A stretch of 64,000 bases of DNA from Methanosarcina mazei S-6 (GCF_000970205.1 NZ_CP009512.1:3100001-3164000), one strand, 5' to 3'; numbered from the stretch's first letter, positions 14,736-34,810 are shown. Notes: generated from the letters alone by a model not told the origin. A program made the numbers and translations.

Positions 14736-14939
14736 GGTATCAGTCTCTAGTTTTTACGGTATAGGGATTTGTATATTAGTATTTAACTGATTTCCATAGA
14801 AGCAATCCGCAGCTGAACAAGGAAAAATTCACATTATGAAGGATGAAATCTTGCACCTCGCATAAACATGAAAAACTCAAAGATATTAAGCAACCCAATT
14901 TGGAGGAAACGTGGATTTTTGTAGTTATTTTAGAACTTT

Positions 14940-15623
14940 TCATATTACCTGTTCCAGAAGTTGTCCATTCTCTTTCAACCATGATTTTGCCTTATCCATT
15001 GTTGGAGATTGTGCGCGGACAATATTCCAAAATCTGGGAGTATGGTTAGGCTCAATAAAATGAGCAAGTTCATGAATGATAACATAATCAATAACAAACA
15101 TTGGTGCCTTTATCAACCGCCAGTTGAAGTTAACATTGTTCTTCACGGTACATGACCCCCAACGATAGCGGTTATCAACTATCTTGACCTCGGCAAAGTT
15201 GACACCAAGCTCACGAGCGTGTTTCTTGACTCGCGGGACAATTTTTTCTTTGGCTTTGCCTATATACCACTCTCGCAAGGTTTCTTCTCGCTTTTCCCCC
15301 TGAGTAGCCGGAATAAGGAATCGCTGGGAGAACTTAATCTCGGATAAGCCCATTTTAACCAACTCTATACGGTATTGACGACCTAAATAAAGTGCGGATT
15401 CGCCACTAACCAGTTCTTTTCCCGGTGGATGAGGAAGATCCTGATATTTTTGTGGATGGTTAATTTTTTCGTATATCCACTGACGTTTTGAATCCACTAC
15501 CTGCTGTATTTTTTCGTCAGATACTCCTTCCGGTGCATGCACCACTATACTTCGGTCCCTTTCTACGGTGATGTTTAATTTTTTTCGCTTGGATGATCTT
15601 TTAATTGTATAGACCAAATCCAT
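14940..15623 (-). CDS. YgjP/SprT-like zinc metallopeptidase at the end of the restriction operon
   Basis: 227 residues of the YgjP/DUF45 (WLM-related) metallopeptidase family. The zinc motif HELAHFIEPNH (HExxH with a further His) is intact, followed by the typical TPRFW. The preceding region has DNRYRWGSCTVKNNVNFNWRL, also a family hallmark. It starts 6 bases after the hsdR stop, so it is the last gene of the hsdM-hsdS-PHP ATPase-hsdR operon. Members of this family often sit beside hsdR in bacteria, but their role in restriction is not known; cleavage of a DNA-bound protein, as with SprT/Spartan, is a guess. No signal peptide. Confidence 0.88.
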   Translation of the reverse strand: MDLVYTIKRSSKRKKLNITVERDRSIVVHAPEGVSDEKIQQVVDSKRQWIYEKINHPQKYQDLPHPPGKELVSGESALYLGRQYRIELVKMGLSEIKFSQRFLIPATQGEKREETLREWYIGKAKEKIVPRVKKHARELGVNFAEVKIVDNRYRWGSCTVKNNVNFNWRLIKAPMFVIDYVIIHELAHFIEPNHTPRFWNIVRAQSPTMDKAKSWLKENGQLLEQVI

Positions 15624-15629
15624 TGAAAA

Positions 15630-18600
15630 TTACTCCGCATAGAGAATGATGTCATTGTTTTTCTCAGCTATTTCCATGATCCGGCTTATGAGTTGAGCAC
15701 GGTTTTTTACGAGAACGGGCATATTTGCAAATTCCGATGCAAGAAGTATACTCTGAATCTCTGCTTTCAACTTGTTGCGTGCAGGAATACTTTCCCAAAA
15801 TCCGGTGAGTTTCAATTCACGCTCTACGACTAAAAAGATCTGCTGCGTCAGATTGACAAGCGAAGAGATTTCGTCCTCACTAAGATTTTTCTCTCCAAAG
15901 ACTTCGTGTTTAAACATTCGGAACAGCGGCATTTGCTTCTTCCTATGAAGCCCATAAGTAGGCTCTTTACTGGCATTGATGATACGCACCCTTAATTCTT
16001 CCAGTTCCTCGTAAATCCTCTCCCAGTTGTCATGGAATTCTCTAAAAATATTCGCCAATGCTTCTGCAAAAGAAGCTTGAAGGTCCGGGTCGTCATCCAG
16101 TTCGACATCAAGATAGTGGCGAATTGCGTGTTCAACCTCTGCTGCCTTTGTTTTGGTACGGGTACGTTTGCCTGCTTGTTTTAGAAAATCCTCATCGAGG
16201 ATGGAAATTGGCTTGACTTTCACTGCAATGCCTTTTGACTCAAGATAAACATCGGTAATAGCACGTAGTTTCGGAGGGATGCCTTTCATACTCAAGCGTC
16301 CATCACGGAAGTGTTCACCTGCCAGCCCATAGATCTCAGTGAGAGCCTTATAATCGTCAATGTACTCAAGGGCTTGTCGGGCAGGGAATATAAGGTTTAA
16401 GCATTTGGTCAGCTTTTTGAACGCTAGCATGAACTCGAAACGCAAGTCTTCATCATAGAAAAGATCGAAGAATGCATCATAATCAGTTAGATCTGTAAGG
16501 CCGTATTTTTTGAGCAAATCCATGATAGCTGCATGACTTGCAATGAGTTCGCGCAGTTCGTCCTCTGGGAAACTGAGGGTATCTATCACTTCTTTTTGTT
16601 CACGCTCATCGTAGTTTTCCAGGGCTTTTTTCAGGTGATGACCGATGCCTACATAATCAACCACAAAACCTTTTTCCTTGGTCACGCCAGCCACTCGGTT
16701 TACACGAGCTATAGCCTGAAGGAGATTGTGTGCGAAGATTACTTTATCAAGATACATAACCTGCTCTACAGGAGCATCAAAACCTGTCAGCAGCATATTA
16801 TTGACGATGAGGATGCCCATATCGCCAGTAATTCCTTCTTCTTCACTCCCAAAGGCCATCTTGAAGCTCTTGATGCTGGTTTCGTGTTTTGAATTGTCAG
16901 AATAGGCCTTAAGTTCTGGTGAATCGTTATTATTGCCGGAAATGATGACATCTGTTTTCAGCTTCTTTAGCTGGCTAAGATCAAGCTTCTTAGGGTTCTC
17001 CTTTTCTAAACAGGTAATTTCATCAGCCAATGAAGCATCGATGAATTTCTTATAACGCACTGCCGCCTCACGGGAAGTGGCTACTATCTGGGCTTTGTAT
17101 CCATTGGAGAACACATGCGTCAGGTAGTGTTCGATCATATCTTTGGCCTTAGCCTCGATAGTTGGCTCAGCTTCCAGATAAGCGTCTCGAGAGCCATAGC
17201 CCAGAATTTGAAGACGTTGCTTGAGGTTATATTCGCTGAACACATCTTCAAACGCTTTGTCCATTTCATCCCTGTCGGTGACTTCGGCATTGTGAGTGCG
17301 ACCTTCGTAGATGATCTCCAGAGTAACGCCGTCCTCGATGGATTGGCGCATTGTGTATTTGTCTATGTAATCGCCAAAGACCCGCTCGGTCTTGTCGATG
17401 GGCGTGCCGGTGTACCCAATACGAGAAGCGTTGGGAACGCCCTTGTCAAGGTTTGCTCCCAGAGTCTTATACTGAGAACGGTGCGCCTCATCGATCATTA
17501 CCAGAATATTCGGGCTAGGATTAAGCTCAGGGAAGACCTCTTTCAGATCAGCTTCGCGGAACTTGTGGATCATAGCCATAACCAGATCCGATGAGTCCGA
17601 ATGCAGGAGTTCTTTCAAGCTTTTCCCATCTGGTTTTTTCTTGGGATTTATAAATTCGGCTGCCTTGACCGTAAAACCGATGCTCTGACTTGTTTCCGAA
17701 AGTTGTTGTTCCAGCTGGGTTCTATCGGTAACAAAAACTACCTTCCAGTGGGAAAGCTGGGGATGCTGGTACATTTCACGCACCATGAACATCATTGTAA
17801 GAGATTTTCCTGAACCCTGTGTGTGCCAGATAATCCCGCTTCTTTCTCGAGGGCTCTGACCTTCTAAAAGGCGCTTGACAGCCAGTTTGACGGCGCGGAA
17901 TTGCTGGTAGCGGCCCACGATCTTGATTGTCTCGCCTTTATCATTGACAGAGAATAGAGTGAAAGTACGGATGAGATCCAGCAGGTTATTGCGGTCAAGC
18001 ATTCCGGCGACCAGACGCTGCTGATCATTGGGACCGCTGCTGCCATGCTCCAGCTCGTCAACAGTACGAGGATAGGGGTCAGCCCAGCGGAAGAATTGAT
18101 TTTCGTTATGGGTAGTAATAGTACCGAACTTAGCCTCCTGGCGGCAGGTGACGATAACGATCTGATTGTAATAAAAGAGAGGGGAGCTGCCTTCTCCCTT
18201 GAAACCGCGCTGTTCACTGTAACGCAGTATCTGGTCAATAGCTTCGGGAATAGCATCTTTGACCTTAGGTGATTTGCACTCGATAACCACTACCGGCAGA
18301 CCATTAAGGAACAGTACGATATCCGGAAAGATATGGTGCTCGGTACCGAGGATACGCACCTTGAACTGGCAAACGGCAATAAAGCGGTTGTTATCCCGAT
18401 GCTTAAAATCCACAAAACGTACTGTTGGGCTTTTTTCACCTGTTTGGCGGTTCTCACTGACACTGGTGTTTTCCAGCAACAGGGAAAAGACGTGGCGGTT
18501 GTTTTTGATCAGGTCGGTTCCAGGAAAGCTTGCAGTAAGTTGCTTAATTACTTCCTCTACCTGATCATCTTCCAGCCAAGGATTTATGATCTTGATCTGC

Positions 18601-18782
18601 TCACGCAAAATCGGAAGCATCACCACCTCGGTAAAGCTCTGCCTGTAGCTGTCACTGGGATGCTGTTTATTATCGAGATCAATAATTTCCCAATCCAGGC
18701 TATGAAGTTGATTGAGAAAAGGTTTTTCGACGTGGTTGCGTTCGTCGAGTTTTATGTGAGGAGGTGTTTTGTCTTGGATCAT
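15630..18782 (-). CDS. hsdR: Type I restriction enzyme R (motor and nuclease) subunit
   Basis: 1050 residues. The N-terminal nuclease domain has the PD-(D/E)xK core (FPDIVLFLNGLPVVVIECKSP, ECK near residue 165). A superfamily 2 translocase follows: Walker A HTQGSGKSLTM (~319), DEAH box MIDEAHRSQ (~429), GYTGTPIDK, and motif VI LQAIARVNRV. The C-terminal part is the helical region that contacts the methylase core. All key residues are intact, so the enzyme looks active. It starts 71 bases after the PHP-ATPase gene and is followed 6 bases later by the metallopeptidase. It cuts DNA lacking modification at the HsdS target after ATP-driven translocation. Confidence 0.97.
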   Translation of the reverse strand: MIQDKTPPHIKLDERNHVEKPFLNQLHSLDWEIIDLDNKQHPSDSYRQSFTEVVMLPILREQIKIINPWLEDDQVEEVIKQLTASFPGTDLIKNNRHVFSLLLENTSVSENRQTGEKSPTVRFVDFKHRDNNRFIAVCQFKVRILGTEHHIFPDIVLFLNGLPVVVIECKSPKVKDAIPEAIDQILRYSEQRGFKGEGSSPLFYYNQIVIVTCRQEAKFGTITTHNENQFFRWADPYPRTVDELEHGSSGPNDQQRLVAGMLDRNNLLDLIRTFTLFSVNDKGETIKIVGRYQQFRAVKLAVKRLLEGQSPRERSGIIWHTQGSGKSLTMMFMVREMYQHPQLSHWKVVFVTDRTQLEQQLSETSQSIGFTVKAAEFINPKKKPDGKSLKELLHSDSSDLVMAMIHKFREADLKEVFPELNPSPNILVMIDEAHRSQYKTLGANLDKGVPNASRIGYTGTPIDKTERVFGDYIDKYTMRQSIEDGVTLEIIYEGRTHNAEVTDRDEMDKAFEDVFSEYNLKQRLQILGYGSRDAYLEAEPTIEAKAKDMIEHYLTHVFSNGYKAQIVATSREAAVRYKKFIDASLADEITCLEKENPKKLDLSQLKKLKTDVIISGNNNDSPELKAYSDNSKHETSIKSFKMAFGSEEEGITGDMGILIVNNMLLTGFDAPVEQVMYLDKVIFAHNLLQAIARVNRVAGVTKEKGFVVDYVGIGHHLKKALENYDEREQKEVIDTLSFPEDELRELIASHAAIMDLLKKYGLTDLTDYDAFFDLFYDEDLRFEFMLAFKKLTKCLNLIFPARQALEYIDDYKALTEIYGLAGEHFRDGRLSMKGIPPKLRAITDVYLESKGIAVKVKPISILDEDFLKQAGKRTRTKTKAAEVEHAIRHYLDVELDDDPDLQASFAEALANIFREFHDNWERIYEELEELRVRIINASKEPTYGLHRKKQMPLFRMFKHEVFGEKNLSEDEISSLVNLTQQIFLVVERELKLTGFWESIPARNKLKAEIQSILLASEFANMPVLVKNRAQLISRIMEIAEKNNDIILYAE

Positions 18783-18853
18783 GATTTCTCATCTTTTCTC
18801 TGTCCTAAACTTCTTTATTAGAGAGATGAATATTTTTATTGATAACAAATGTA

Positions 18854-21800
18854 TTATTTAGAAAGAGCATATCGATTTTCTCTCACCTTGAAAGCGGGTT
18901 CTCCCCCTTCCAGAAGAAGACAAACCGCTTCACGCACCCCAAGGTTACTAGCCTTCCCAATGTGTTCCAGAGAACCAGGATTGTACTTTATAGTGGGGTA
19001 TGACTGCGAATTTGACCTTTCTGCAGTGGCTATTATAACCTGCTCAGCATCAGTAGCGACTACTAAATTTGGGTTGTGTGTCACCAATATAATTTGACGG
19101 CGTTTTTTTGCTTTCCGTATATATGGCACCAGCTGGTCATATACCGATGAGTTGTCGAGGTTACCTTCTGGTTGGTCAATTATTAGGGGGCGAGTATCAT
19201 CCTCGTCCATCAGGAGATAGAGAACCAGCAATGCAATGCCTCGTGTGCCAGGAGATAGGTATTCGAGTTCTGTTTCATTGTATCGAATCTTATAGTTGAG
19301 CGAAATATGGTCAGTGGAATACATCCAATCATAAAGCTCAACGAGTGATGTTTTTAGAGATGCAAATTTTTCTAAAAATGATTCAGCATCGAACAATTTT
19401 ACAAACTTTTCAAACTGAGCCCTGATCTCTTCTATTTCACCTTTTTTCCATGCTGGAACTAGAGATGATTCCACAAATCTTTCGATCTCCAACTTCTTCT
19501 CATCCACGCCTGCATGACGTCTATCAAAGAATCTCCCTACATTTTCAAGCCATGCCCGGAAGTCGATCTGATAACCTACAAAAATCTCGAATTTCTTATC
19601 CATTCCAAGGTCTTCAATCGCGTGCTGAATGGGTATATATAGGTCACGAAGACCTGCCTCGTCATCTTTGAGTGCTGAAAAAAATTCAAGGTAAATTTCC
19701 AATAGTTGGCTTTGCTTCTTAGAAAGAAGCTTTTTGACTCGGGTATCCAAGTTCTTTATTTCCATTTCAAGGCGCTCAACAGTTCCCTTCCGCTCCGAAA
19801 TTTGCTTTTGAAGGTCAAGGAGTCTCTTTCGCCGTTCCTCATCTTTTGAAACTTTTTCCTTTAACTCGGTTATCGATTTTGTTACAGCAAGTATAGTCTT
19901 GGAATTTGTGCCATCATTCTTGCTCTCTGTATCTTCAGGCTCGCTCCCCTTTAGCTTAGTAATATCCGAGTCAATAGTTTGAAGTTTACTGTTAAGAGAC
20001 AAATCGACTGTTCCATCCCATATCGGTGGCATCCTTTTAATCAGATCTTCTTCTATCCCCACTTCCCTAAGTTTTCCTTGGATTTCTTTTACTTCCGATT
20101 CCACTTTACTCTTCAATAAACCATACGTTTGTTTCACATCCTCAATTTCCCTTCTGAGGCGTGTTTTTGTGGCAATATTCTTTTCAATACCTGCAAGCAG
20201 GTTTTGCTGTTCTTGAAGCTGTTCAAACATCTCTTGATCTATAAACTGCGTTGCATCTGGAAGTTGTTTATTAAGATCTTCAATTTGCTTCTCCACTTCT
20301 TTCTTGGAATCCACTTTTGATTGACGTTGACTGATAGTCTGATACAGACGTTCAATCTCTTTATTAAGTGTTGCAATCTCTCCCCTAAATTTTTCCCTCC
20401 TCATACTCGAAGCAGCTTCTCGCGCTTTACGCAGTTCACTAAAAGATGAATAGCCTTCCTTCTGAATTTCATTTAAACGGGTAAAGACTACATCCTCGAT
20501 AGCTTTTTGAAGCTCGTGTCCTTCATAATCTGATGAACAAAGTCTCTCCACAAAATCTTGAGAGAGGTAACGAACCAGTGGAAGCGATACAAGATGCGGT
20601 TTATCTACTAGAATAGCTGATGTAGTACTCCCATTTCCCCATTTTAATTGGACTTTTACGTCGGATAGATGTGGTCGCCCCTTAGTAATAAAAGACGACT
20701 GTGATTTTTTATCCCATGGAACACCCGCAGCAAAAGCGGCAAGTTCAGCAATTGCAGTTTTCCCTGCCCCTTTCTCACCAATTACCGCCACAAGACCAGC
20801 GTTTAGCTCAACATTCTTTTGAGTGAACCAGTTTTTTGTATTGGAAAAGCTGATACGACGAATTAATTGACTCTTGTCTGTTGGCTGTGGTGGAACAGCC
20901 CCAATGTGAACCCGATCTTCAGGCTCCCAGAGGATTTGTCGTAGTCCTTGGAATGTAGGGTCACTTTTAATCCAGCAAAAACGTTCATTATCTGGTTGAA
21001 ATAGCTTTTCTATCTCATGGGCATCAGAACCGTGTATACAAGGCTTAAGAGACCCATACTGACTAATGATATCTTCAGCTGTGACTTCAGACTTCTTGCC
21101 AAGGTAATGTTCTCTATCTCTCGGATTGCCGGAAAAAACGAAGTCGCACAAACAAAGCATCTCATCTCGAATAGCAGCAAAACCATCCAATGGGAGTCCA
21201 CTTATTCCGTCTTTTCCATTTGCAATTCCGATCAAGCAATTGCTGCGCAGCCATGCCTCTTCTTCCAACCATTTTTTTAGGTCGGTACGGTCTGGTTTGA
21301 ATTGTTCAATTCCAAAGCGATAAGCATGATCATCGTTTTCGAAATCACTTTTCTGTTTACGAGCAAATTCAATCAATTCATTGCGACTGCATCCATATCT
21401 TTCGCCTTTATAAATAAATTTTAGATTTTTGAGTGACCGTTTAATTTTAGCAATATGGTCTGGGTCTGATGGATCTATTAGCAGGTGCAAATTTAATGCT
21501 TTGCCATCCCTTGTTTGAGGCATAATCCTAAATTCAACGTTTGGTATCAGAAGATGAACGTTTTTAAGCCGGCCATCTTTTTTTGCTATTACAAGTTTTT
21601 CATAGCCATCAATAGACATGTAATCCGTTACGCCGATTACCGCTATTCCTGATCTTTCTGAAGCAGATTCTAAGGCATTGACGTACTCATCCCACTCCAT
21701 GCCAGAAAAGGCATTTCCCATCCGGCTGCATGGAGTATGAACATGAAGATCCCAGAGACGCCATTGAGAACCTTTGGGATATTTTGATTTAAGGAATGAA

Positions 21801-21880
21801 ATGGACTTTTCGGTGCCAACTATAGAGCGTTCATCCATTGTTGACAGGGTGCTCTGATATTCTTTGCCTTGACTCATCAT
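18854..21880 (-). CDS. PHP phosphoesterase fused to an SMC/RecN-like ATPase (TrlF-like), inside the hsd operon
   Basis: 1008 residues. An N-terminal PHP domain carries metal ligands in DLHVHTPCSRMG (HVH at 46-48), GVTDYMS and CIHGSDAHE (near 287). An ABC-type ATPase follows: Walker A GEKGAGKT (~367), a long coiled coil (about 500-720), signature LSPGTRGIALLVLYLLM, Walker B IIDQPEGNLDN (~901) and ILVTHNPNLVV. Both active sites look complete. The layout matches the TrlF-type AAA-like ATPases placed near defence genes and broadly recalls the RloC/PrrC nuclease-ATPases associated with type I systems, but the nuclease part differs. Its start overlaps the hsdS end by 4 bases (ATGA), so it is co-translated with the modification genes. 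A guard or second-line nuclease role is inference. Confidence 0.88.
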   Translation of the reverse strand: MMSQGKEYQSTLSTMDERSIVGTEKSISFLKSKYPKGSQWRLWDLHVHTPCSRMGNAFSGMEWDEYVNALESASERSGIAVIGVTDYMSIDGYEKLVIAKKDGRLKNVHLLIPNVEFRIMPQTRDGKALNLHLLIDPSDPDHIAKIKRSLKNLKFIYKGERYGCSRNELIEFARKQKSDFENDDHAYRFGIEQFKPDRTDLKKWLEEEAWLRSNCLIGIANGKDGISGLPLDGFAAIRDEMLCLCDFVFSGNPRDREHYLGKKSEVTAEDIISQYGSLKPCIHGSDAHEIEKLFQPDNERFCWIKSDPTFQGLRQILWEPEDRVHIGAVPPQPTDKSQLIRRISFSNTKNWFTQKNVELNAGLVAVIGEKGAGKTAIAELAAFAAGVPWDKKSQSSFITKGRPHLSDVKVQLKWGNGSTTSAILVDKPHLVSLPLVRYLSQDFVERLCSSDYEGHELQKAIEDVVFTRLNEIQKEGYSSFSELRKAREAASSMRREKFRGEIATLNKEIERLYQTISQRQSKVDSKKEVEKQIEDLNKQLPDATQFIDQEMFEQLQEQQNLLAGIEKNIATKTRLRREIEDVKQTYGLLKSKVESEVKEIQGKLREVGIEEDLIKRMPPIWDGTVDLSLNSKLQTIDSDITKLKGSEPEDTESKNDGTNSKTILAVTKSITELKEKVSKDEERRKRLLDLQKQISERKGTVERLEMEIKNLDTRVKKLLSKKQSQLLEIYLEFFSALKDDEAGLRDLYIPIQHAIEDLGMDKKFEIFVGYQIDFRAWLENVGRFFDRRHAGVDEKKLEIERFVESSLVPAWKKGEIEEIRAQFEKFVKLFDAESFLEKFASLKTSLVELYDWMYSTDHISLNYKIRYNETELEYLSPGTRGIALLVLYLLMDEDDTRPLIIDQPEGNLDNSSVYDQLVPYIRKAKKRRQIILVTHNPNLVVATDAEQVIIATAERSNSQSYPTIKYNPGSLEHIGKASNLGVREAVCLLLEGGEPAFKVRENRYALSK

Positions 21881-23136
21881 ACATCTGCAACCTCCGTCTG
21901 ATTAAAAAGAGCAGTGACGCGCGTCTTACCCGTGAGCAGGTCTTGCATGAGAGCTGTTTTAAGTGAGAAGAGTTTTTGAAGAGTTCTTGTAAGATCTTCG
22001 AGGACTGAACTTTGCAATATTAATATACGTTCAATTTTTTCCTGCTCACTAATATCCGGTACCTTAACCAATAGAGTACGCATTTCCCCGACATTGAAGT
22101 GTTGCTGTGCCAATCCTCCTTGACCTTCTAAAACTTGCCTTTTCCCATTGTCGGAATTAACCCATATAGAAAGAAAATTAGACCTAATTACTTCATTTTT
22201 CGGTCTCGATATTACGAGATCAACGCAATTACTTCCATCTAGCTCTCTAGGTATTACACTGGTTGTCCCTGGGTAACCTGTTCTTACTGTAACCAAATCT
22301 CCTTCTCTAAGACGACTCTTTGATAACATTTCGTTATCTGTTTTGGATATAAAAACAAGGTCATCACAAAAAATTGTGTTTTCTCTTACGTTTGCAGACC
22401 TCAAAACTGGTATACCTTCCGGACGATAATACTGTGCAGGACGAATAACTATACCAACAACAATTTCTCGGCAAAGTGCTGCACATGGCTTTACCTCCCA
22501 TTCCACTGGAATCCTCCCCAATGGAGAATCTTTGAATTCGTGAGTTTCTTCGGAGCGGAGGTTGCCATGCTCATCTATTCCGCGGGTGAGGAGATCCTGC
22601 ATCAGGCCGGTCTTGATTCGCTGCTTCTTGGCAATCAACGCCTCGGTCTGTTCAATCGCTTGATCCACCTTCGAGAGGATCTCGGCGATTTTAGTTTGTT
22701 CAAATTTGGAAATGGGAAACGGAGCTCTGAACCTGTCTAGTTCCTTCCTCGTAATATGTTGCATTGTGGAACCATGAGATGCTTTTGTCAGTTCAGGTAG
22801 ATAGAACTCAATGAATAACTTAAGGAAAACTCTATCAACACCTTCTTTTTCAATAACTTTGAAAAGGTGTTGATTGAGTGCTGCACGACCATGTTGCCAG
22901 ATCCTAAGGAATAGCGATGCACTCCACGAAAAGATTAAATCACCGTTTTCAATGATGTTTTTTTGAGGAATTTTGCCTGAAGAGTAGTCTATAAGTTCGT
23001 TGGGATTCTTCAGTTGTTCGATCCGGATAATAGGTAATCCATCCTCCCCCCAATCATCTGGTTTGAATGAATAGCCATTTATATATTCGGCAAGTTCGCT
23101 AAGCTTTTTCTCACTCCACCCCTCTATGACCTTCAT
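21877..23136 (-). CDS. hsdS: Type I restriction specificity subunit HsdS
   Basis: 419 residues with the usual two target-recognition domains, each followed by a conserved helix: first [21 protein letters not shown]...LPIIRIEQL, then [14 protein letters not shown]...[10 protein letters not shown]. The two spacer helices share [19 protein letters not shown]-like and [14 protein letters not shown] sequences, followed by [12 protein letters not shown] / [12 protein letters not shown] repeats. It determines the bipartite DNA target. It overlaps hsdM and the PHP-ATPase gene by 4 bases at each end. The target sequence cannot be predicted here. Confidence 0.97.
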
Positions 23137-25805
23137 TTCAAATACCCCATCCCTTTCAGGAACCCATCTAGAGTATTCAAGGTTTCATTGCGTTTATTTT
23201 CCAGATCGCTACTAGAATCCGCGTATTTGTCCCAGAGGTTTTCGACCACCTGAACCAGCCCGCGCTTTTCGGCGTTGAGGTAGCGGTTCAGTTCGTTATT
23301 TATCAGATCATAGAGCTTTTTCAGAATTAACTGCTGGGCTTCCTCTTCAGTTAGCTGGCCTCCAATGGCGACAAGAGTACTATCGGTTTTGGTGAGGCGC
23401 GCTTGAAGGACAGATTTGTCCTTATTCAAGGCAGTGATTTTCTTCTTATCGTCCTTGTTTTTCGGATCGAGCTCAACCAGTTGATCATTTACCTGCCGGA
23501 TCATCTCACGGCTTTCAGCCTTGAATCCGTCGCCACCGAGGCGTTTAATCTGGAGTTTGAGTTCCAGTTCGTCGGTTTTGCTTTTCAGAGCAGCCCTGCT
23601 ATCTTTTATGCGTTTTTCTATGTCCTTGATGGTATTTTCCTGGTCCTGAAGGTTTTTCAGTTCTTTGCGAGCGGAGTCACCAGGGCTGCCTTTGAGATCG
23701 TCAATCAGTTCCTTGAGGGCTTTTTTAATGACGGCAGCAGTAACTGTCTCTTCTTCATTCGGTTCATAGGCTGCCACTTCCTGCGCGGCTTCTACTGCTT
23801 CAGTAAGTTCGCTCTGTGCCTCGCTTATCTGAGCTTCCAGTGTTTCAATCTTCTCGGACTCAGCCTGGAAGAATTCAGCAATCAGGTAATCATCCGGAAT
23901 CAGGCTGTGATGCCAGCCGGTAGAGATAATGGTTTTGAGGTCGTAGCGGATCTGCTGCCACCAGTTTACAAATACACCGGCGCTCTGGAACTCGTCGAGC
24001 ACACCAAGGGGGATCAGTTTTTCTTTAAGCGTTTTCAGCAGCTCAGAACGGACTTCAGGCATCTTCTTTCCATTGTGAAGCTGGGAAAAATCATCGCGAG
24101 CTACTGTCCACCAGGCTTCCAGCTCATCATGATGAATTGTAAGAGTCTTCTGGAGAGTAGGATTTGCTTCCAGAGTTGCCTTGATTTTCGGTTTTGTATC
24201 TATCTCCTTACGGAAGGCGAGATAACCGGAGCGTTCGGGACGGAACATAGTTTCATGATCGACTCCGAAGCGAGCAAAGTCGGGAGCAAGGGCTGCAACT
24301 TCGGCTTCGGGGATACCGCCAATCAGGTGTGCCTGCACATCCTCAGGTTCAGGTTCTGGTGTGTTGTCCACATAGCGGCGAATGTTAAGGTTATAATCGT
24401 TCTCAACAATCTCTGCTTTACTGATTAAACGTGAATATTTGGGAATTCCACGTTTGTTGGTGAAAACAAAATCAATCTTTTCGATGTCCTCAGGGCGTAG
24501 TTTGTTCTGGGCCTTACCTTCGGCATATTCGCGATCGGCATTGATGAATAGAATCTTATCCTTAATCGAATCAGGCTTATTTTTGTTGGCAACGATGACA
24601 CAGGCAGGGATGCCCGTACCATAAAAGAGACCTGGCGGCAGACCAATGACGGCTTCTATCACATCGTCATTGATAAAAATCTCACGGATCAGTTTCTCCT
24701 TACCTCCGCGAAACAGCACGCCGTGAGGCATGATTGTTGCCATGTGACCATCAGGTTTGAGGCTGGCGAGCATATGCTGCACAAACATCAGGTCTGCCTT
24801 CTTTCCTGTCTCAGGACAAAACTCTCGGAAGCGACTGGCGAATTTCATGCTGGCACGGCTGTAGTTCTGTGAAAAGGGGGGATTAGCCAGCACACGGTCA
24901 AACTTGCGGATCTGACCGTGATCCAGAATCATTGGATCCTCCAGCGTATCCCCGTTCTCGATGGTAAAACGGGTGATATTGTGGAGAATCATATTCATGT
25001 TACAGATCGACCAGACAGTGCCGTTTGATTCCTGACCATAAAGAGCTAGATCGTTTGGATCTTGTCCTTGCTCCTCAACGTACTGATGGGACTGAATCAA
25101 GAAACCACCAGAACCGGCAGTCGGATCGTAGATCTCATTGCCTGCCTCCGGCTTGGTGATCTGAACCAAAAGACGCACCACTTCAACAGGGGTGTAAAAT
25201 TCGCCGCCTTTTTTACCTGCACTGTCGGCAAAATACTTGATCAGATATTCATAAGCCGCACCCAGCAAGTCAGGAAACTCGAAATTTTCGTTGACCAGCA
25301 CGAAATGGGGCTGGTTGAAATGATCCAGCAGATCTTTCCATTTCTGGTCAGGAATTTTGGTCTTACCTTTAACTGCATTAAAGTCAATATTGTTTTTTAG
25401 AACTCCTGCGAGAGAATCATTTTCCTCTTCGATAGCAGCAATAGCTTTGTTAAGCATATTACCAATATCATGCTTTAGGTCCTTGAGAGCAGGAACTCGT
25501 TCACCATTTTCATCAATCCATGACTCGTGCCAGCGAGCGCGAACAGGCACGAAGAAGGTCTCGCCGTAAGATGTTTTTTCTTCCTTTAGTTCATTGAGCA
25601 GTTCTGGCTTATCTCTTAGATGTGCATAATCTTTCTTGCACAGTTTATCACGTTTGTAGTCAAACTCATCTGATAGACGCTTGAGAAAAAGCATTCCAAA
25701 AATAAATTCCTTATACTCGGAGGCATCCATCTTGCCACGCAGAATGTCAGCGGCTTTGAAAAGGAAGTTTTCGAGTTGAGGAAGTGTAATTTTTTCAGTG
25801 GTCAA
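23133..25805 (-). CDS. hsdM: Type I modification methylase HsdM, long form
   Basis: Adenine-N6 DNA methyltransferase. An N-terminal helical HsdM_N domain is followed by the SAM motif [11 protein letters not shown] (~226) and the catalytic NPPF in [10 protein letters not shown] (~306). At 890 residues it is much longer than the common ~500-residue form. The added C-terminal ~380 residues contain charged coiled coils ([34 protein letters not shown]). Such long HsdM proteins occur in other archaea and bacteria. The start is TTG at 25805 with GAGGA 7 bases before it. It is the first gene of the operon. Confidence 0.96.
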
Positions 25806-26288
25806 GAATTATTCCTCGGAAATTATAAATTATTACAATGGTAAAATCAGGGGGATTTTCCTTACAGAGAATTAAAAGATTCCCGTGCCCCTTATATCTA
25901 AGTTATAGCAAATTTGTAAGTCACTCGAAATGACTTTTTGAGAATTCGTGAATTTTACTTTGCAACACTATATTAATTTCCCTTTAAATTTGTTTTGTTA
26001 TTTTTTTGAAAGCCTATTGTATAGATCTTTGCTGTAGACTCCGCTTGAACAGGCAATTAAATAATATGTGCAGCATAAATTATCAGATACACACTTTTAA
26101 AAGTAAATACTTCAATTAATTAATACTATAGTCCTAGAAAGTATCGATATGGATAGAAAAATTCAATCTAACCTATTAAATCACAGAGAAAAAAGTTGGG
26201 GAACTATGAATAATAAAAGGAAAAAATCTTCATCCATACTAGAAAAATCAAGTATCAAATCTCAACAATTTCGATTTTAGGTGAATAA
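25806..26288. other. AT-rich divergent promoter region
   Basis: 480 bases between hsdM (minus) and the CPBP protease gene (plus). A 43-codon frame at 26149-26280 ends just before the CPBP start and overlaps its ribosome binding site (AGGTGA), but has no good start signal of its own. No flanking repeats or integrase were found that would mark a border of the restriction island. Confidence 0.5.
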
Positions 26289-27119
26289 ATGATCCCCAGC
26301 TACAGGTACAAACCCGGAGTCTATTTTACTGCGACTTTTATTATAACCTATACTCTCTGGTTTGCAGGGGCATATTTAAGTTTTCAGGATGATAGCGGGC
26401 TGTATATGTTATTAATGATACCTGGACTGATGGCGCCTTTTCTTGTTTCACTGTTTATGATATTTACGTCCAAAAATTCGGATTTAAAAAAGGATTTTAT
26501 TAATCGGCTTATTAATCTCAGGTTAATAAGGCCAAAAGTGCTGCTGGCATTTTTTATAATAATGCCACTCACTGTTCTGGTATCTATTTTTCTTTCTCTT
26601 CCATTTGGTGGATCGACTTCTCAATTCCAATTTGCTGAAGGTTACTCATTTTCATCAGGGTTTGTCCCTGCGTTTCTTACTCTTCTCCTGGCTGCAACTT
26701 TTGAAGAGCTTGGATGGAGAGGATATGCCTTTGATAGTCTGCAAAGCAGGTACACTTTCTTTATGGCATCTCTTATTTTCGGCATACTCTGGTCACTCTG
26801 GCACTTCCCACTTATCTTTGTCAAGGACATGTATCAGTATGAGATTTTCCACGAAAACATCTGGTATGCAGTGAATTTTTTTGTCGGCGTCATCCCTATG
26901 GGAGTGGTTATCAGCTGGATCTGTATAAAAAACGGAAAAAGTGTTCTGGCAGCAATTCTCATTCACGTTTCCATCAATTTCTTGCAGGAAGCTCTGCAAA
27001 TGACCCAATTTGCAAAGTGCATTGAAACTGTGGTTATTACTATCGTTGCTGCCATTATTCTTGCATCAGATAAAGAGATGTTTTTTTCGAAAGAACATCT
27101 TGATGCTGAGAGGATCTGA
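26289..27119 (+). CDS. CPBP-family intramembrane metalloprotease
   Basis: 276-residue polytopic membrane protein with about eight hydrophobic segments. The CPBP/Rce1-like motifs are present: EELGWRGYAF (motif 1 with the EE and R), then LWSLWHFPLIF (motif 2 His) and IHVSINF (motif 4 His), all in or next to membrane helices. Family members cleave prenylated or small membrane proteins, or act as bacteriocin-immunity proteins. No partner gene nearby points to the substrate. AGGTGA precedes the ATG by 5 bases. Confidence 0.93.
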   Translation: MIPSYRYKPGVYFTATFIITYTLWFAGAYLSFQDDSGLYMLLMIPGLMAPFLVSLFMIFTSKNSDLKKDFINRLINLRLIRPKVLLAFFIIMPLTVLVSIFLSLPFGGSTSQFQFAEGYSFSSGFVPAFLTLLLAATFEELGWRGYAFDSLQSRYTFFMASLIFGILWSLWHFPLIFVKDMYQYEIFHENIWYAVNFFVGVIPMGVVISWICIKNGKSVLAAILIHVSINFLQEALQMTQFAKCIETVVITIVAAIILASDKEMFFSKEHLDAERI

Positions 27120-28526: not shown

Positions 28527-28551
28527 TTCCGCAAGCATTTTACCTGCGGAA
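28527..28551 (-). terminator. Hairpin spanning the stop codon of the distal sarcinarray gene
   Basis: Arms TTCCGCA/TGCGGAA with an 11-base loop. The hairpin contains the last codons and stop of the gene at 28540-29145 and is followed by a modest T-rich stretch on the minus strand. Confidence 0.4.
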
Positions 28552-29145
28552 CAGGGCAAAAACCAGTACTAGAATTGAAATTGCGCCGGCAAGTGTAAAG
28601 GCTGGAGTGGATGCTGATGTGGGTGAGGATTCTGTTTCTGAAATTGGCCGCTCTTCAGAAGTGGGAATTTTGCCTTCGTAATGTTCGTTGGAGATTGTAC
28701 AGTAAGCAGCTGTAAATTCCCCTTTTACCAATATTTCCCCACCAGCACCTAACTCATTTACTTGATAAACGAAGTCAAGAGGCATGCTCCCACCTGCCCA
28801 TTTTTCAGTTGGTTTTACAGTCCATTCAAAAACTTCCGTCGAATTTTCTTCCATAATTGTTCTATAGTATTCTTCCATTTTTAGGGTAGGTCCATCTATT
28901 ATTACAAAGTTGTCCTTTCCAAGTTCGCTTAGTTTAACAGCAACATAGCACTTTTGATTCACAGTAAAGTCGAACCTAACCTTAAAAGGTTCTCCTATTT
29001 TCAAAACTGGCTTCGCAATTTCTTTTCCTGGCAGAATTTTGTCATTGTAGTAGACATCTATCGAACCATATTGGCTACTTGCAGAAGCTGTTCCAATCAA
29101 GAAGAGAAATATAATTCCCAAAGTAACAAAGCTTACATTCTTCAT
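28540..29145 (-). CDS. Sarcinarray-family surface protein, copy 2
   Basis: 201 residues: N-terminal signal peptide (LGIIFLFLIGTASA), a ~140-residue extracellular domain (KPVLKIGEPFKVRFDF; EWTVKPTEKWAGGSMPLDFVYQ), a Ser/Thr/Pro/Glu stalk, and a C-terminal tripartite tail (TPAF, hydrophobic helix, FRR). The tail resembles the PGF-CTERM archaeosortase signal with PAF in place of PGF. This layout matches the sarcinarray (MAST) family of Methanosarcina as I recall it. It is a paralogue of the gene at 30033-30641 and overlaps the upstream module by 4 bases. Role: cell-surface component, partner unknown. Confidence 0.82.
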   Translation of the reverse strand: MKNVSFVTLGIIFLFLIGTASASSQYGSIDVYYNDKILPGKEIAKPVLKIGEPFKVRFDFTVNQKCYVAVKLSELGKDNFVIIDGPTLKMEEYYRTIMEENSTEVFEWTVKPTEKWAGGSMPLDFVYQVNELGAGGEILVKGEFTAAYCTISNEHYEGKIPTSEERPISETESSPTSASTPAFTLAGAISILVLVFALFRR

Positions 29146-29957
29146 GAATTTACCCCAATTTCAAATATCAAATCATCATAACTGACTGATTTTTCTGTGC
29201 TATCGCCCAGTTTATCCCCAACACCTTTAGGTCCTGTTCCAACAATTGTTGAAGCATATCCATTAAACTGAAATTTTATAGGGGTATTCTCTCCAATTGC
29301 TATAGAAGACCCGTCCTCGTTTTCTTTAAATGGATGATACACACTTTCTTCTTGTCTCACATACCGTTGTCCTTTATGTCCAAAGTAAGGCTTTGGAATC
29401 ACCTCATTGTCATTATCAATAACAGTAAAAGTCTGATACTTCCCCACAATCTCATACGTCCAGACATTCACCGTAAAAATCCAGTGCGGAGGCATTACCG
29501 GAAGTCCGCAGGGAACAGCTGCCATCGTCCTGTCCAGCCTTTTTGTTACCCTTTCAGCTACCTCTCCCGAATATTTGTCTACAGTCTCATCTGCAAGGTT
29601 TTTTAGCTCATTGTCAATTTTTCCAAAAAGGATGTCAAGAGTTTCACCTTTGCTAACTGTTACTGCACAAATTCCGTTTGCAACACCCATTCTAACATCT
29701 GTATCGACCCTGTTAAGAACAGCTTCGAGTTCATCAGAACCAACCGGAGGATTTGAATTCCGAAGTTCTGTTTTTATGATAGCAGCAAGCTCGGCTGCAA
29801 GCTGGTCTGTTGTGGATTTTTCGATTAACTCTTCATCTGAGAGGCTGTTAAGATAACCGGTTGTGACTGCACGAATGCGGTCTTTTTTGATCCACCCGGA
29901 AACAACTGGATTTGAGCTTACTTCACCGGTGACTTCTTCAATAATCTGAAGCCTCAT
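29142..29957 (-). CDS. Stand-alone duplicate of the C-terminal module of the 1388-residue surface protein
   Basis: 271 residues matching the last ~270 residues of the protein encoded at 30644-34810, beginning at the equivalent of an internal Met (MRLQIIEEV against MRIQIIEEV). The core from SDELEAVLNRVD to IPKPYFGHKGQ is almost identical, while both ends differ more. It has no signal peptide and no membrane segment, unlike the full-length protein, so it may be a released or secondarily recruited module, or a decaying copy kept open. AGGG lies 8 bases before the ATG. It is followed directly by a sarcinarray gene, copying the order of the parent pair. Confidence 0.8.
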   Translation of the reverse strand: MRLQIIEEVTGEVSSNPVVSGWIKKDRIRAVTTGYLNSLSDEELIEKSTTDQLAAELAAIIKTELRNSNPPVGSDELEAVLNRVDTDVRMGVANGICAVTVSKGETLDILFGKIDNELKNLADETVDKYSGEVAERVTKRLDRTMAAVPCGLPVMPPHWIFTVNVWTYEIVGKYQTFTVIDNDNEVIPKPYFGHKGQRYVRQEESVYHPFKENEDGSSIAIGENTPIKFQFNGYASTIVGTGPKGVGDKLGDSTEKSVSYDDLIFEIGVNS

Positions 29958-29996
29958 TAAACAGCCCTGAAGATTTTATAGGTGAAAAAAAGGTTT

Positions 29997-30020
29997 GGAG
30001 ACATCTAAAAATAGATCTCC
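29997..30020 (-). terminator. Hairpin plus T-run between the two surface modules
   Basis: Arms GGAGA/TCTCC with inner CTA/TAG pairing. On the minus strand it is followed by a run of seven T's. It lies after the first sarcinarray gene and before the duplicated module, and may reduce read-through into the second unit. Confidence 0.5.
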
Positions 30021-30032
30021 AACTCGAGGTTT

Positions 30033-30641
30033 TCATCTGCGGAAAATAGCAAAAGCCAGTACTAGAATTGAAATTGTGCCTGCAAGTGTAAAGGCTGGAG
30101 TGGGCGATGATGTGGGTAAGGATTCGGTTTCTGAAACTGATGATTCTTCAGAAGTGGGAATTTTGCCTTCATAATGTTCGTTGGAAATGTATGGATACGC
30201 TATGGTAAATGAACCATGAACAAGTGAATTTTTTGTTTCAAAATCATCAATTTGATAAACAAGATCAATTGGCAAAGATCCTCCCTTCCATTTATCAGTA
30301 GGTTTAACTGTCCACTCATAAGTGATAGTAGAATTTTTTTCTATTATATCAGCTCTATATACATCCATTTTAGGAGTTGAACCATTAAGAATTACAAAAT
30401 AACCTTTTTCTATTTCACTTAATTTTATAGACATTTCGCATTTTTTATAGATTGCAAAATCAATTTTAACATCAAAAGGTTCTCCGATCTTTAAAACTGG
30501 TTTTGGAACTTCCGTAGTGTTTAGCAATTTACCGTTAAAATACAGGTTATACTCATAAACATCTCCATAAGGATTATATGCGGATGCTGTACTTGTAAAT
30601 AAAATTAAAATTGCCCCTATTATTGCTATTTTCCTTCTCAT
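30033..30641 (-). CDS. Sarcinarray-family surface protein, copy 1
   Basis: 202 residues with the same build as the protein at 28540-29145: signal peptide (IIGAILILFTSTASA), KPVLKIGEPFDVKIDF, a WTVKPTDKWKGGSLPIDLVYQ section, a shared YISNEHYEGKIPTSEE stretch, stalk, and a TPAF...FRR tail. It starts 2 bases after the stop of the large surface protein gene, so the two are cotranscribed. The close resemblance of signal tails and the YEGKIPTSEE block shows a common origin by tandem duplication. Confidence 0.82.
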   Translation of the reverse strand: MRRKIAIIGAILILFTSTASAYNPYGDVYEYNLYFNGKLLNTTEVPKPVLKIGEPFDVKIDFAIYKKCEMSIKLSEIEKGYFVILNGSTPKMDVYRADIIEKNSTITYEWTVKPTDKWKGGSLPIDLVYQIDDFETKNSLVHGSFTIAYPYISNEHYEGKIPTSEESSVSETESLPTSSPTPAFTLAGTISILVLAFAIFRR

Positions 30642-30643
30642 AA

Positions 30644-33600
30644 TTATCCTCCAAACTCTGTCAAAAGATCATCGTACATTACTGATTTTTCAATCCCATC
30701 TCCAGTTTTATCTCCAACTCCTTTTGGTCCAGGTCCAACTATCGTGGCAGAATATCCTGTTAAATGAAATGTTATTGGTTTGTTATTTCCTAACCATATG
30801 CTGCTTCCATAAGTATCAATTTTAGATGGATGTCTTATATGATCTTCTTTCCTCACATATTTCTGACCTTTATGCCCAAAATAAGGCTTCGGAATCACTT
30901 CGTTATCGTTGTCAATAATAGTAAACACTTCATACTCTCCAATTAATTCATACGTCCAGACATTCACCGTAAAAATCCAGTGCGGCGGCATTACCGGAAG
31001 TCCGCAGGGAACAGCTGCCATCGTCCTGTCCAGTCTTTTTGTTACTCTTTCAGCTATCTCTCCCGAATATTTGTCTACAGTCTCATCTGCAAGATTTTTC
31101 AGCTCATTGTCAATTTTTCCAAAAAGGATGTCAAGAGTTTCACCTTTGCTAACTGTTACTGCACAGATCCCGTTTGCAACACCCATTCTAACATCTGTAT
31201 CGACCCTGTTCAGGACAGCTTCGAGTTCATCAGAACCAACAGATGGACGTGCGTTCTGAATTTCTGTTTTTATGATAGCAGCAAGTTCAGTTGTGAGCTG
31301 GTCTGTTGTGGATTTTTCGATTAAGTCTTCATCAGAAAGACTGGTAAGATAACCAGTTGTAATTGTCCTGACATGATTCTCTGTGATCCATCCGGAAATA
31401 ATAGGATTTGAACTTACCTCGGAGACCACCTCTTCGATAATCTGAATTCTCATTTCCCGGACATAAATTAGATTCAGTTTATAAACTTCCGTATTAAGGG
31501 GAGCCATATTCAAAGAGACTCCCTGCTCGCTCAGGTTTTGCTCCAGCAGGTCAACTTCCTTATTCAGCGTGTAAATGTTCTGGCTGATCTGGTGCGACAT
31601 TTCTGTTTTTACATATTCGCCACTTGAAGAAATGGCATCTGCTATTTCTTCAGAGATATTGGTTGTAAAAATACAGGTGTTGCGAACACCCAGAGGATAA
31701 GTGATCCTCCCCCTTGCATCTGTCAATTCATATTCTCCCCTGAGATCGAAGTCAGGATCGTGGTAGAGGTAGTTAGGCTTCTGGTCAACAATGACGGTCA
31801 GGTTTTCAGTCCAGTTGTATTTGCTTTCGGGCTGGCCTGTGACTGTCATCGTGGAGATGATGCCCATTTTCTGCCCAAGGGCAGAGGCAGCCCGTTCCAT
31901 TGCCGGGTTATCGAAAAGAGTCATTGGACCTGAGGTTACGCTGTCAAAAGCACCGGTGCTGAGGCCTTTTTCCTCGAGGGCGTCAAGGATGTAAGAGTTC
32001 AGGCTGGAGTCCAGTTTTTTGTTCTTCTGCTCGATATCTTTGAGCAGCCTGTTATAGGCTTCGTTTCTGGCAATGTAACGGGCAGAGTCACTGGAAGTGT
32101 ATATTTTTCCGGCTGAAGTGAGATGCTGTTTTTTATTTACATAGGTTTCCCGGCTTGATTTGAGATCACGAATCAATCTTTCGGCAGTCTTAACCTGAAG
32201 GTCTGTCGGATCCTGACCGGGAGATTCCAGAAGAGAATAATTGAATGTGGGGTTGTCCCTTTCAATGGCATCGAGCATTTCCAGCACTTCTTCAGCCATA
32301 ACCCTGTGAAGCCAGGGTGGAATATCACAGACGACCCCCCGTTTTGAAAGATAGTTTCCATCAGGGTAAGCCCAGTATGTGCTCTCAATTGCTCTGAGGT
32401 CCACATAAGCAGCACGATATTTGTCTGCTGCGTCTGAACAGCAGGGATCAAATCTTTCTGCACCGGCTGTATAAAGAGTTGTGTTTCTGTATTCTCTTTC
32501 TATCGGGTCAGTGTAGGTTGATATGCCTGAATAGATGCCTGTGGGTGGACGCTGGTGATAGACTACTGTCAGGTTTTCTGATTCGGTCTCATAGTGTAAA
32601 AGGGACTCAAAATCTATTTTGCTTACCGTTTCGAATTTCGAAGCACTTTCTGTAACCGAATGTGTTTCTATGGAAGTGGTGCCATCTGCATTATGGTTTA
32701 CAGTGTGCCAGGAATATGTGTAGGCATAATCGTAATCAATTTTCCAGGTTGTTCTGATATTATAATAAATATCATAACGGACTCCCCAATCAAATGTATG
32801 GTCTTCCCCGCTGAGATAGCCGTCATCCGTCCTGCGCTCGGCAACAAGCCTGTCATTAGCCCTGTATTCGTAATGGGGTACAACCCTGACATTGGTTATA
32901 TCCACGGAATTCAATCTAACGGAGGCATCCGTAATATACCAGCTTTTCAGCTTTCCTCTGGGAGGATTGATATCAGGATATATGGTGTTAAAATAGTAAT
33001 TCGCAACATGATGATTCCACGAGTAAGATTGGATACGCGACCCTGAATGTGTTCCGGAAGCGAAATAATCAGCATTCCAGTTAACAGTGTGCCCGCTGTA
33101 TGAAACCGAATCACGGTCAAAGTCCACTGTGATTGTTGAAGCCAGAGGGGAAGGAGAATTGAAGCCGTCCCTCAGGATCTGACCCTGGACCGGAGCCGTG
33201 TAAACGCTGTTTGTAACGGTGTGGATAAGGTCAGGGTTTTCCTCCGTCCATACATGGTCATTGAAGACCCAGCCATCGAGAACTCCCTGTGTATAGTCCG
33301 AAGCTGAAACTTCTATTTCCGAGTATTCGGAAAGATTATCATAGGAGGTGTTTGCTTCCACAAGAGATTCTTCAATGCCTTCCTCCACATCCAGGGAAAA
33401 AGACCTGTTTTCTGCAAGAGAAGAATACGCTGTAGTAAGGTTCACGCCTTTATCCTTTTCATAGGGAGACGCAGAGCTATTCGAGTCGGTTGAATTACCC
33501 AATGTTGAATTCATCAAGCCCGAACCTGCTTTTAAGCTGCCGGAATCGCAGACGTCTTCATACAGGACCTTACCGTTGTAATAGGTGGTATATGTAAGAG

Positions 33601-34810
33601 CCAGAGGGTCAACCGAGTCAAAGACTTTTTTCTGAGTATATAGCGTCGCTCCGTTGACCGAACTTGCAAGGGCAGGATTGGTAAGGATATTCAGCGGCCC
33701 GTTTGCATAATGCTGCCAGGGACCATAGATAAAAGTCCTGAGGTTTGTCGCCCCCAGAACGAGATTTGAAGTAGAGTCCAGGCTTGAAGATGTTTTGAGT
33801 GAAAGTTCGTATTCCTTTACAAGTTCTTCAAGCAGGGGTTCTCTTGAAGTGATGAGAGTGGAGAGGTTCATACTCATGTTATATGTCTCTCCGGACTCGA
33901 GGTCAACAAGAGTGTAATTCAAAACAGGAATTTCGAATATATAGTAAATCGTGTAATTTTTGTCAGAGGGGAAAATTTCCCGCTGCAAAGTCCCGTTTAC
34001 TTTTCTTATCTTTATCTGCTCGGGTTCTATATCTGGTTCGACATTAATAGCGTATCCCATGAATGTGTGGCTGTTGCCCTGATAGTTTGCCGAAAGCAGC
34101 CGGTTGAAAGATTCTGTCGTGATGTCCTTTATGGGGCCTGCTTCAATCTGGAACCAGTCGGAAGCTTTTAGTTCATCCCCATAATAGAGTTCAATGGATG
34201 CATAGCCGGCTTTTGAATTCTCCGGGACTTCCACGTATTCATAAAAGGAAACTTTTTGAAGAAAGCCGGTAGCCTGCCCGTAATTCACTCGTGTGAGTTG
34301 CTGTCCTGCAGAGTCATTTACGACAAGGACAACATCCCTGTTTTTCCACAGGGACTCGACTCTTCCCCAGACATCTGAGGGCAGATTTATGGAAATTTGA
34401 AGAGTGTCTCCTTTCTCAAGATTCTGGTTTTGCGGAGTTGCCATGAAGTTATCTTCAGAGAACCTCTCGACAGGAGATCCTTCGGGAAGAATTACAGGAT
34501 GTTCTCCCTGCCATTCCAGGGCTTCCATGCCTGCGTAGTTAAGGCAGCGAGAGATGTCAGATGCGGCAAGGTTGATAGCCTCCTGTCTTGGATCACTTTT
34601 CTCTGTAGTATATATTGTTTCGGCAACCTCGCTGTCCATCTTCAGGAGATAGACAGAGGTAAAGGTTGCAATAAGAACAATGAAAATTCCTATTACAGCG
34701 TAAGGAATATAGGCGCTGGTATCCTGAAAAAGCCAGGAACATTTAGAAAAAGAATAGTTGAGAGATCGTTTCCCGGCTATATTTCTCACCCCAAAAACAG
34801 AAGATTGCAA
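30644..34810 (-). CDS. Large membrane-anchored surface protein of unknown function
   Basis: 1388 residues. One membrane helix near the N-terminus (YIPYAVIGIFIVLIATFTSVYLL) is followed by a very long extracellular part with many Tyr, Ser, Thr and N-x-S/T sites, and helical stretches near 900-1000. The N-terminal hydrophobic anchor followed by ETIYTTEKSDPRQEAINLAASDISRCLNYAG recalls pilin-like archaeal proteins encoded with type IV filament or secretion genes, but no such genes are nearby. The start is uncertain: TTG at 34810 or GTG at 34789; no ATG fits. It is the first gene of a minus-strand operon with a sarcinarray protein. I do not know its function. Confidence 0.85.
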   Translation of the reverse strand: MQSSVFGVRNIAGKRSLNYSFSKCSWLFQDTSAYIPYAVIGIFIVLIATFTSVYLLKMDSEVAETIYTTEKSDPRQEAINLAASDISRCLNYAGMEALEWQGEHPVILPEGSPVERFSEDNFMATPQNQNLEKGDTLQISINLPSDVWGRVESLWKNRDVVLVVNDSAGQQLTRVNYGQATGFLQKVSFYEYVEVPENSKAGYASIELYYGDELKASDWFQIEAGPIKDITTESFNRLLSANYQGNSHTFMGYAINVEPDIEPEQIKIRKVNGTLQREIFPSDKNYTIYYIFEIPVLNYTLVDLESGETYNMSMNLSTLITSREPLLEELVKEYELSLKTSSSLDSTSNLVLGATNLRTFIYGPWQHYANGPLNILTNPALASSVNGATLYTQKKVFDSVDPLALTYTTYYNGKVLYEDVCDSGSLKAGSGLMNSTLGNSTDSNSSASPYEKDKGVNLTTAYSSLAENRSFSLDVEEGIEESLVEANTSYDNLSEYSEIEVSASDYTQGVLDGWVFNDHVWTEENPDLIHTVTNSVYTAPVQGQILRDGFNSPSPLASTITVDFDRDSVSYSGHTVNWNADYFASGTHSGSRIQSYSWNHHVANYYFNTIYPDINPPRGKLKSWYITDASVRLNSVDITNVRVVPHYEYRANDRLVAERRTDDGYLSGEDHTFDWGVRYDIYYNIRTTWKIDYDYAYTYSWHTVNHNADGTTSIETHSVTESASKFETVSKIDFESLLHYETESENLTVVYHQRPPTGIYSGISTYTDPIEREYRNTTLYTAGAERFDPCCSDAADKYRAAYVDLRAIESTYWAYPDGNYLSKRGVVCDIPPWLHRVMAEEVLEMLDAIERDNPTFNYSLLESPGQDPTDLQVKTAERLIRDLKSSRETYVNKKQHLTSAGKIYTSSDSARYIARNEAYNRLLKDIEQKNKKLDSSLNSYILDALEEKGLSTGAFDSVTSGPMTLFDNPAMERAASALGQKMGIISTMTVTGQPESKYNWTENLTVIVDQKPNYLYHDPDFDLRGEYELTDARGRITYPLGVRNTCIFTTNISEEIADAISSSGEYVKTEMSHQISQNIYTLNKEVDLLEQNLSEQGVSLNMAPLNTEVYKLNLIYVREMRIQIIEEVVSEVSSNPIISGWITENHVRTITTGYLTSLSDEDLIEKSTTDQLTTELAAIIKTEIQNARPSVGSDELEAVLNRVDTDVRMGVANGICAVTVSKGETLDILFGKIDNELKNLADETVDKYSGEIAERVTKRLDRTMAAVPCGLPVMPPHWIFTVNVWTYELIGEYEVFTIIDNDNEVIPKPYFGHKGQKYVRKEDHIRHPSKIDTYGSSIWLGNNKPITFHLTGYSATIVGPGPKGVGDKTGDGIEKSVMYDDLLTEFGG

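Follow-up and report, generated by a model that had tools for sequence, protein, structure and literature searches.

TrlF occupies an exchangeable cargo slot in a type I restriction operon of Methanosarcina mazei

Introduction

The RRDM island of enteropathogenic Escherichia coli has the gene order rptR-hsdM-hsdS-darTG2-hsdR-M48, and its authors considered that the site between hsdS and hsdR may be a hotspot at which defence systems recombine (PMC12255303). Here, we report an archaeal example of this already known modular kind of defence operon, whose cargo is new and whose cargo exchange is unusually clear-cut, in a 64,000-nt stretch of Methanosarcina mazei S-6 (hereafter, the window; the genome, G000, is a single contig of 4.14 Mb). 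The operon encodes the HsdM, HsdS, and HsdR subunits of a type I restriction-modification enzyme, an ATPase with a PHP nuclease-like domain that belongs to the TrlF family, and a YgjP-like zinc metallopeptidase.

Another relevant system is Ppl, a PHP single-strand 3′–5′ exonuclease that is gated by NTPs and becomes active when nucleotides are depleted and 3′ ends are present (PMC12904381). For TrlF itself, our literature search for a role in defence turned up only the Photorhabdus temperature-restriction operon, which includes trlF and in which no trlF mutation was among the escape mutants; TrlF may nevertheless have been listed as an embedded cargo before. An earlier note on the M. mazei locus had proposed that the five genes form a single system, in which the PHP-ATPase would guard the restriction enzyme by analogy with PrrC and RloC. 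Its account of the gene content, the motifs, and a gene order not confined to one genome largely stood, but the idea of one dedicated machine did not. We consider it likely that the locus is an acquired type I operon of the form hsdM-hsdS-cargo-hsdR-YgjP, in which the hsdS–hsdR junction serves as an exchange slot for defence modules and TrlF is the present cargo.

Results and Discussion

An archaeal operon with the RRDM architecture

The five genes lie on the minus strand in the order given above (Table 1), with 4-bp overlaps between hsdM and hsdS and between hsdS and trlF, a 71-bp gap between trlF and hsdR, and a 6-bp gap between hsdR and the YgjP gene. Coordinates and protein families bore out the earlier description of a co-stranded set of hsdM, hsdS, PHP-ATPase, hsdR, and HExxH peptidase genes with four-base overlaps or short gaps, and from this spacing they likely constitute one operon. 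The type I restriction-modification set of HsdM, HsdS, and HsdR is complete and has its catalytic motifs (NPPF308 in HsdM and PD...ECK, GSGKS, and DEAH in HsdR), and YgjP contains HELAH at residues 184–188.

For comparison with the E. coli system, we found the RRDM island in another E. coli strain, with DarG and M48 proteins under the accessions that the original description lists (PMC12255303). The M48 peptidase of this island is YgjP-like (PF01863, 208 bits) and 30% identical to the window YgjP. The two loci share the gene order, a cargo between hsdS and hsdR, and a PF01863 peptidase immediately after hsdR, and the window homologs of HsdM and HsdR are 34% and 27% identical to those of the island. 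They differ in host and in cargo, which is DarTG2 in E. coli and TrlF in the archaeon. Searching for an RptR gene, we found no minus-strand open reading frame longer than 27 aa between hsdM and position 26300 of the window, and no TAGCTA palindromes were present at 25806–26290 upstream of hsdM. RptR-type regulation of the window operon was ruled out, as neither the gene nor the sites were found; therefore, the locus shares the RRDM architecture only and is not an RptR-regulated island. Its place among operons of this kind follows from the one-strand hsdM-hsdS-cargo-hsdR-YgjP/M48 order together with cargo exchange between hsdS and hsdR.

Unrelated cargos replace TrlF in closely related operons

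A second genome of the genus (G175, 79% complete) carries a closely related operon, L174, on the same chromosomal side, with the mre11/rad50 flank shared. Its HsdM, HsdR, and YgjP are 94%, 98%, and 98% identical to those of the window, whereas its hsdS has other recognition domains and the place of TrlF is taken by GajA (609 bits) and GajB (729 bits), that is, Gabija. DNA homology between the two operons extends over 26275–23115 of the window, and then covers only the hsdS regions 22718–22487 and 21966–21911. None was detected from 21911 until the hsdR ATG (18782), after which the sequences match at 96% to position 14926. Comparable edges were observed against L176, L177, L214, L216, and L217, a set that includes archaeal and bacterial loci, whatever the cargo. 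Both the swap at the orthologous site, with its breakpoints, and the reappearance of the slot in archaea as well as bacteria are direct observations.

In the operons with the closest HsdR relatives (98, 83, 82, and 77% identity), Gabija, RhuM, KwaB/PDC-S13, or nothing stands where the window has TrlF, and further cargos are listed in Table 1. The hsdS–hsdR interval exceeded 300 bp in 16 of 30 cases measured by script; 14 of these held visible cargo genes and two (L225 and L228) had no convincing gene, while the intervals of L218 and L229 were read by eye and not from script distances. Overall, the hsdS–hsdR junction was opened in about half of 34 loci and the hsdM–hsdS junction in eight. Because TrlF is replaced by unrelated cargo in the closest relatives, the PHP-ATPase is a cargo, and the varied slot contents rule out a fixed five-gene system. 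The single-system proposal thus fails on the cargos, or empty slots, of the nearest HsdR relatives; it is also contradicted by the location of most TrlF genes away from type I genes, as described below.

The two conserved regions of hsdS are mutual repeats, with the motif LMQDLLT at residues 177 and 395. Such repeats could plausibly act as a recombination handle.

Table 1. Features of the M. mazei operon (window coordinates) and slot contents of related loci
Feature	Position or locus	Strand	Description
Acquired island	14825–26243		~11.4 kb; flanked by mre11 and the divergent CAAX-protease gene
hsdM	25805–23133	minus	N6-adenine methyltransferase subunit, 890 aa, TTG start; TIGR00497 over cut-off, PF02384 346 bits, PADLOC MTase_I 950 bits
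hsdS	23136–21877	minus	Specificity subunit, 419 aa; Methylase_S PF01420; two conserved repeats (motif scan)
hsdS central conserved region	22487–22718	minus	Common to relatives with differing recognition domains; blastn islands in L174, L176, L177, L214–L217
hsdS 3′ conserved region	21911–21966	minus	Upstream edge of the slot; homology to relatives stops here regardless of cargo
Exchange slot	18783–21910	minus	From hsdS 3′ repeat to hsdR start codon; TrlF here, GajA+GajB at orthologous L174 site
trlF (PHP-ATPase)	21880–18854	minus	1008 aa; NF045780 641 bits; slot cargo
hsdR	18782–15630	minus	Type I restriction translocase/nuclease subunit, 1050 aa; TIGR00348 488 bits (over cut-off), HSDR_N, SWI2_SNF2
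YgjP-like/SprT-like zinc metallopeptidase	15623–14940	minus	227 aa; PF01863 201 bits, HELAH; constant hsdR partner
Slot cargo	L175		RhuM/PDC-S05
Slot cargo	L176		KwaB-like protein + PDC-S13
Slot cargo	L180, L218		OLD-like ATPase
Slot cargo	L186		Toxin-antitoxin genes
Slot cargo	L188		DarT fragment + reverse transcriptase
Slot cargo	L214		DRT1a (1114 bits)
Slot cargo	L216		Lamassu LmuAB + AbiEii
Slot cargo	L217		PIN-TPR + Fic
Slot cargo	L220, L221		GmrSD
Slot cargo	L239 (Klebsiella plasmid)		YecA
Slot empty	L177, L181, L183, L187, L215, L223, L226, L227		

YgjP accompanies HsdR whatever the cargo

The HsdR–YgjP pair was uninterrupted in all 34 fetched loci, and in plasmid records nearly all the best HsdR matches had YgjP next door, sometimes in convergent orientation (Geobacillus). 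Because the pair stays constant across cargos, YgjP is associated with restriction operons of this class rather than with TrlF; it is part of the restriction backbone. The constant pairing suggests that YgjP may control or clear HsdR, and a literature search for a link between YgjP or COG1451 and restriction found nothing useful. Alternatively, YgjP could be a Spartan/SprT-like protease that strips DNA-stuck proteins, for example HsdR that has stalled or phage end proteins, instead of regulating HsdR levels. SprT/Spartan proteases act on DNA–protein crosslinks, and the HsdR-adjacent YgjP relatives also weakly match SprT-like PF10263. We regard this role as possible but doubtful, because the domain scan detected no DNA-binding domain in the peptidase and the pairing is specific to HsdR, which as a substrate would fit equally well or better.

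YgjP-like genes are also common on conjugative Klebsiella plasmids (355 plasmid records). In the Klebsiella plasmid locus L239, the order hsdM-hsdS-YecA-hsdR-YgjP adjoins DUF262 genes and Hhe.

TrlF combines a PHP domain with a Rad50-like ATPase

The window ATPase is a full-length member of the TrlF family, exceeding the NF045780 cut-off of 350 bits over residues 36–1004 and retaining all conserved residues. It comprises a PHP nuclease-like part (residues ~36–330) followed by a Rad50/SMC-like ATPase with a coiled coil (~337–1008). The ATPase motifs, namely Walker A (G368–K374), the signature S876-x-G878, Walker B (D902-Q-P-E905), and H935, are invariant or nearly so among 66 aligned sequences, and the PHP ligands H46, H48, D86, E116, H132, D286, and H288 are each retained in 65 or more of them. 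The histidine of the usual PHP "TDH" motif is replaced by Tyr87, and tyrosine occupies this position in 65 of the 66 sequences. The claim that the PHP and ATPase motifs are intact therefore holds for all ATPase motifs and seven PHP ligands but not for this histidine, and the possibility raised in the earlier note that relatives might have lost the PHP or Walker residues was not borne out across the alignment.

A Pfam scan detected no PHP domain in the window TrlF, so the evidence for a PHP domain comes from the ligand motifs, the predicted fold, and the match to the TrlF model. In the AlphaFold model (pLDDT 87.5), the ATPase part matches the folds of Rad50, MukB, JetC, and SMC, and the N-terminus matches the PHP domains of RNase AM (closest; TMt 0.55) and Pol III. 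A sequence search of the PDB yielded SMC/Rad50-type and similar ATPases but no solved structure of a TrlF relative. The protein has neither a PF13166 (AAA_13) match nor any CxxC (zinc hook), and no PrrC/RloC-type structure was among the best fold matches. From these absences and the fold matches elsewhere, we conclude that TrlF is not PrrC or RloC, and a relationship to them was ruled out. What survives of the PrrC/RloC analogy is position, in that an ATPase-linked effector gene is embedded in a type I locus; the domains differ, with PHP in place of the anticodon nuclease.

By analogy, the best lead to the mechanism of TrlF is the biochemistry of Ppl. The two proteins share the PHP-then-NTPase domain order and distant sequence similarity, whereas the window TrlF scores 114.5 bits against the Ppl model, far under its cut-off of 1000, and its nuclease activity is only predicted. 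One explanation that builds on this likeness is that cargo and restriction act in series, with HsdR breaking phage DNA and a Ppl-like, end-sensing TrlF degrading the ends. Ppl needs 3′ ends, and Gabija, a slot cargo elsewhere, also acts at phage genome ends (PMC12904381); the ATPase part of TrlF, moreover, resembles Rad50, an end-binding enzyme. Considering that the nuclease is a prediction, that the GmrSD, KwaB-like, AbiEii, and RhuM cargos lack such logic, and that many operons are cargo-free, we judge an arrangement in series to be distinctly improbable.

Most surveyed TrlF genes stand apart from type I genes

We surveyed 104 TrlF loci from Methanosarcinia and bacterial genome contigs, defining a close neighbor as a gene on the same strand within 150 bp. 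An hsdS or hsdR gene was a close neighbor in only eight (L039, L064, L065, L067, L097, L112, L123, and L129), and TrlF was often a lone gene, commonly plasmid-borne. The window TrlF, inside a type I operon, thus differs from most family members examined. On the TrlF tree, type I embedding requires at least seven changes.

The window TrlF forms a clade with L064, L065, L066, and L067 (support 100), and four of the five members are inside type I operons. In L064 and L065, the restriction genes are only distant homologs of those in the window (24–38% identity). L067, on a contig of a Deltaproteobacteria metagenome-assembled genome, repeats the TrlF-hsdR-YgjP order with an HsdR of 78% identity, and an HsdM of 81% lies at the end of another contig of the same bin, although a binning error is possible. 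This recurrence answers the concern that the order might be unique to one genome. In L064, which holds the closest TrlF relative (60%), the adjoining gene (L064:13157–14269) encodes the C-terminal part of an AAA_13 (PrrC/RloC-type) ATPase, followed by DUF3800 and hsdM, which suggests that two guard-like cargos met within one operon. The window genome has a second TrlF (L034; G000:C1:3718306–3721080), whose neighbors are hsdS, a Schlafen AlbA_2 gene, and hsdM. An EcoEI-type hsdR lies a few kilobases from it, and Pfam recognized the EcoEI-type HsdR of both L034 and L039.

These loci bear on whether this TrlF clade is specialized to type I enzymes as a dedicated guard, which would be quiet as long as these enzymes function and whose PHP nuclease would fire when a phage anti-restriction protein blocks them, as in PrrC or PARIS. 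The type I operons that hold four of the five clade members belong to at least two different restriction families, both TrlF copies of the window genome are in type I loci, and the L064 fragment adjoins TrlF in the same operon. We nevertheless find a dedicated guard unlikely, given that mechanistically unrelated systems fill the same slot in near-identical operons, that the family as a whole is mostly found elsewhere with repeated gain or loss of embedding on the tree, and that TrlF lacks a PrrC/RloC domain. A related and rather improbable possibility is that the clade represents a guard of type I enzymes of a new class. As a PHP-Rad50-like nuclease in a single chain, it would move between unrelated type I operons and fire upon a block to restriction, with the slot selecting for back-up effectors such as Gabija, PrrC-type ATPases, and TrlF.

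Elsewhere in the family, the short TrlF genes of Methanosarcinia (L038, L040, L042, L044, L046, L054, L055, L057, and L058) overlap a downstream gene of ~385–390 aa by 13–22 bp, and SLFN_AlbA_2 was found in 11 of 71 close TrlF neighbors. Short TrlF with its downstream or SLFN_AlbA_2 neighbor may represent a recurrent two-gene TrlF system.

The island and its surroundings

The island is absent from seven other genomes of the genus, in which ~0.4 kb separates mre11 from the CAAX-protease gene. As judged from these sequences, the type I operon was horizontally acquired. Within the genus, the CAAX-protease gene (MmRce1 family, window 26289–27119) and mre11 are divergently oriented. G175 lacks the CAAX-protease gene at this site, and its restriction island directly adjoins the conserved stretch that comes next. 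Farther along, window positions 28540–34810 encode secreted or surface proteins that are tandem paralogs and nearly identical in their C-terminal segments (genes of 271 and 1388 aa, and a 201/202-aa pair).

Proposed function and significance

Taken together, we favor an acquired operon with an exchange slot that carries two layers of defence. The HsdMSR enzyme would restrict unmethylated phage DNA, and TrlF would be co-expressed as a second, mechanistically separate layer, in which the PHP domain, in a Ppl-like manner, cuts nucleic acid once the ATPase detects DNA ends or a shortage of nucleotides. YgjP might control or clear HsdR, in the role that ClpXP has during restriction alleviation in E. 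coli. Recombination that swaps recognition domains and cargo would use as its handles the conserved hsdS repeats and the 5′ end of hsdR, which is also conserved. Several points weigh against this picture. The proportion of type I operons in the window TrlF clade is above the expectation for random cargo. TrlF is only a distant relative of Ppl, and with Tyr87 in place of a usual PHP ligand, its nuclease mechanism may differ. The role proposed for YgjP derives solely from its constant pairing with HsdR.

The hsdM-hsdS-cargo-hsdR-peptidase architecture has so far come from one characterized E. coli island. Two near-identical operons that occupy one chromosomal site and differ in having TrlF or Gabija provide a clean natural comparison. 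It sets one edge of exchange at the hsdS 3′ repeat and the other at the hsdR start codon, and it distinguishes the constant HsdR and YgjP from the passengers. YgjP emerges as a constant but little-studied partner of HsdR in a large class of these proteins, probably including many encoded on conjugative Klebsiella plasmids. TrlF, in turn, becomes a candidate for a role in defence, with a proposed mechanism specific enough to test.

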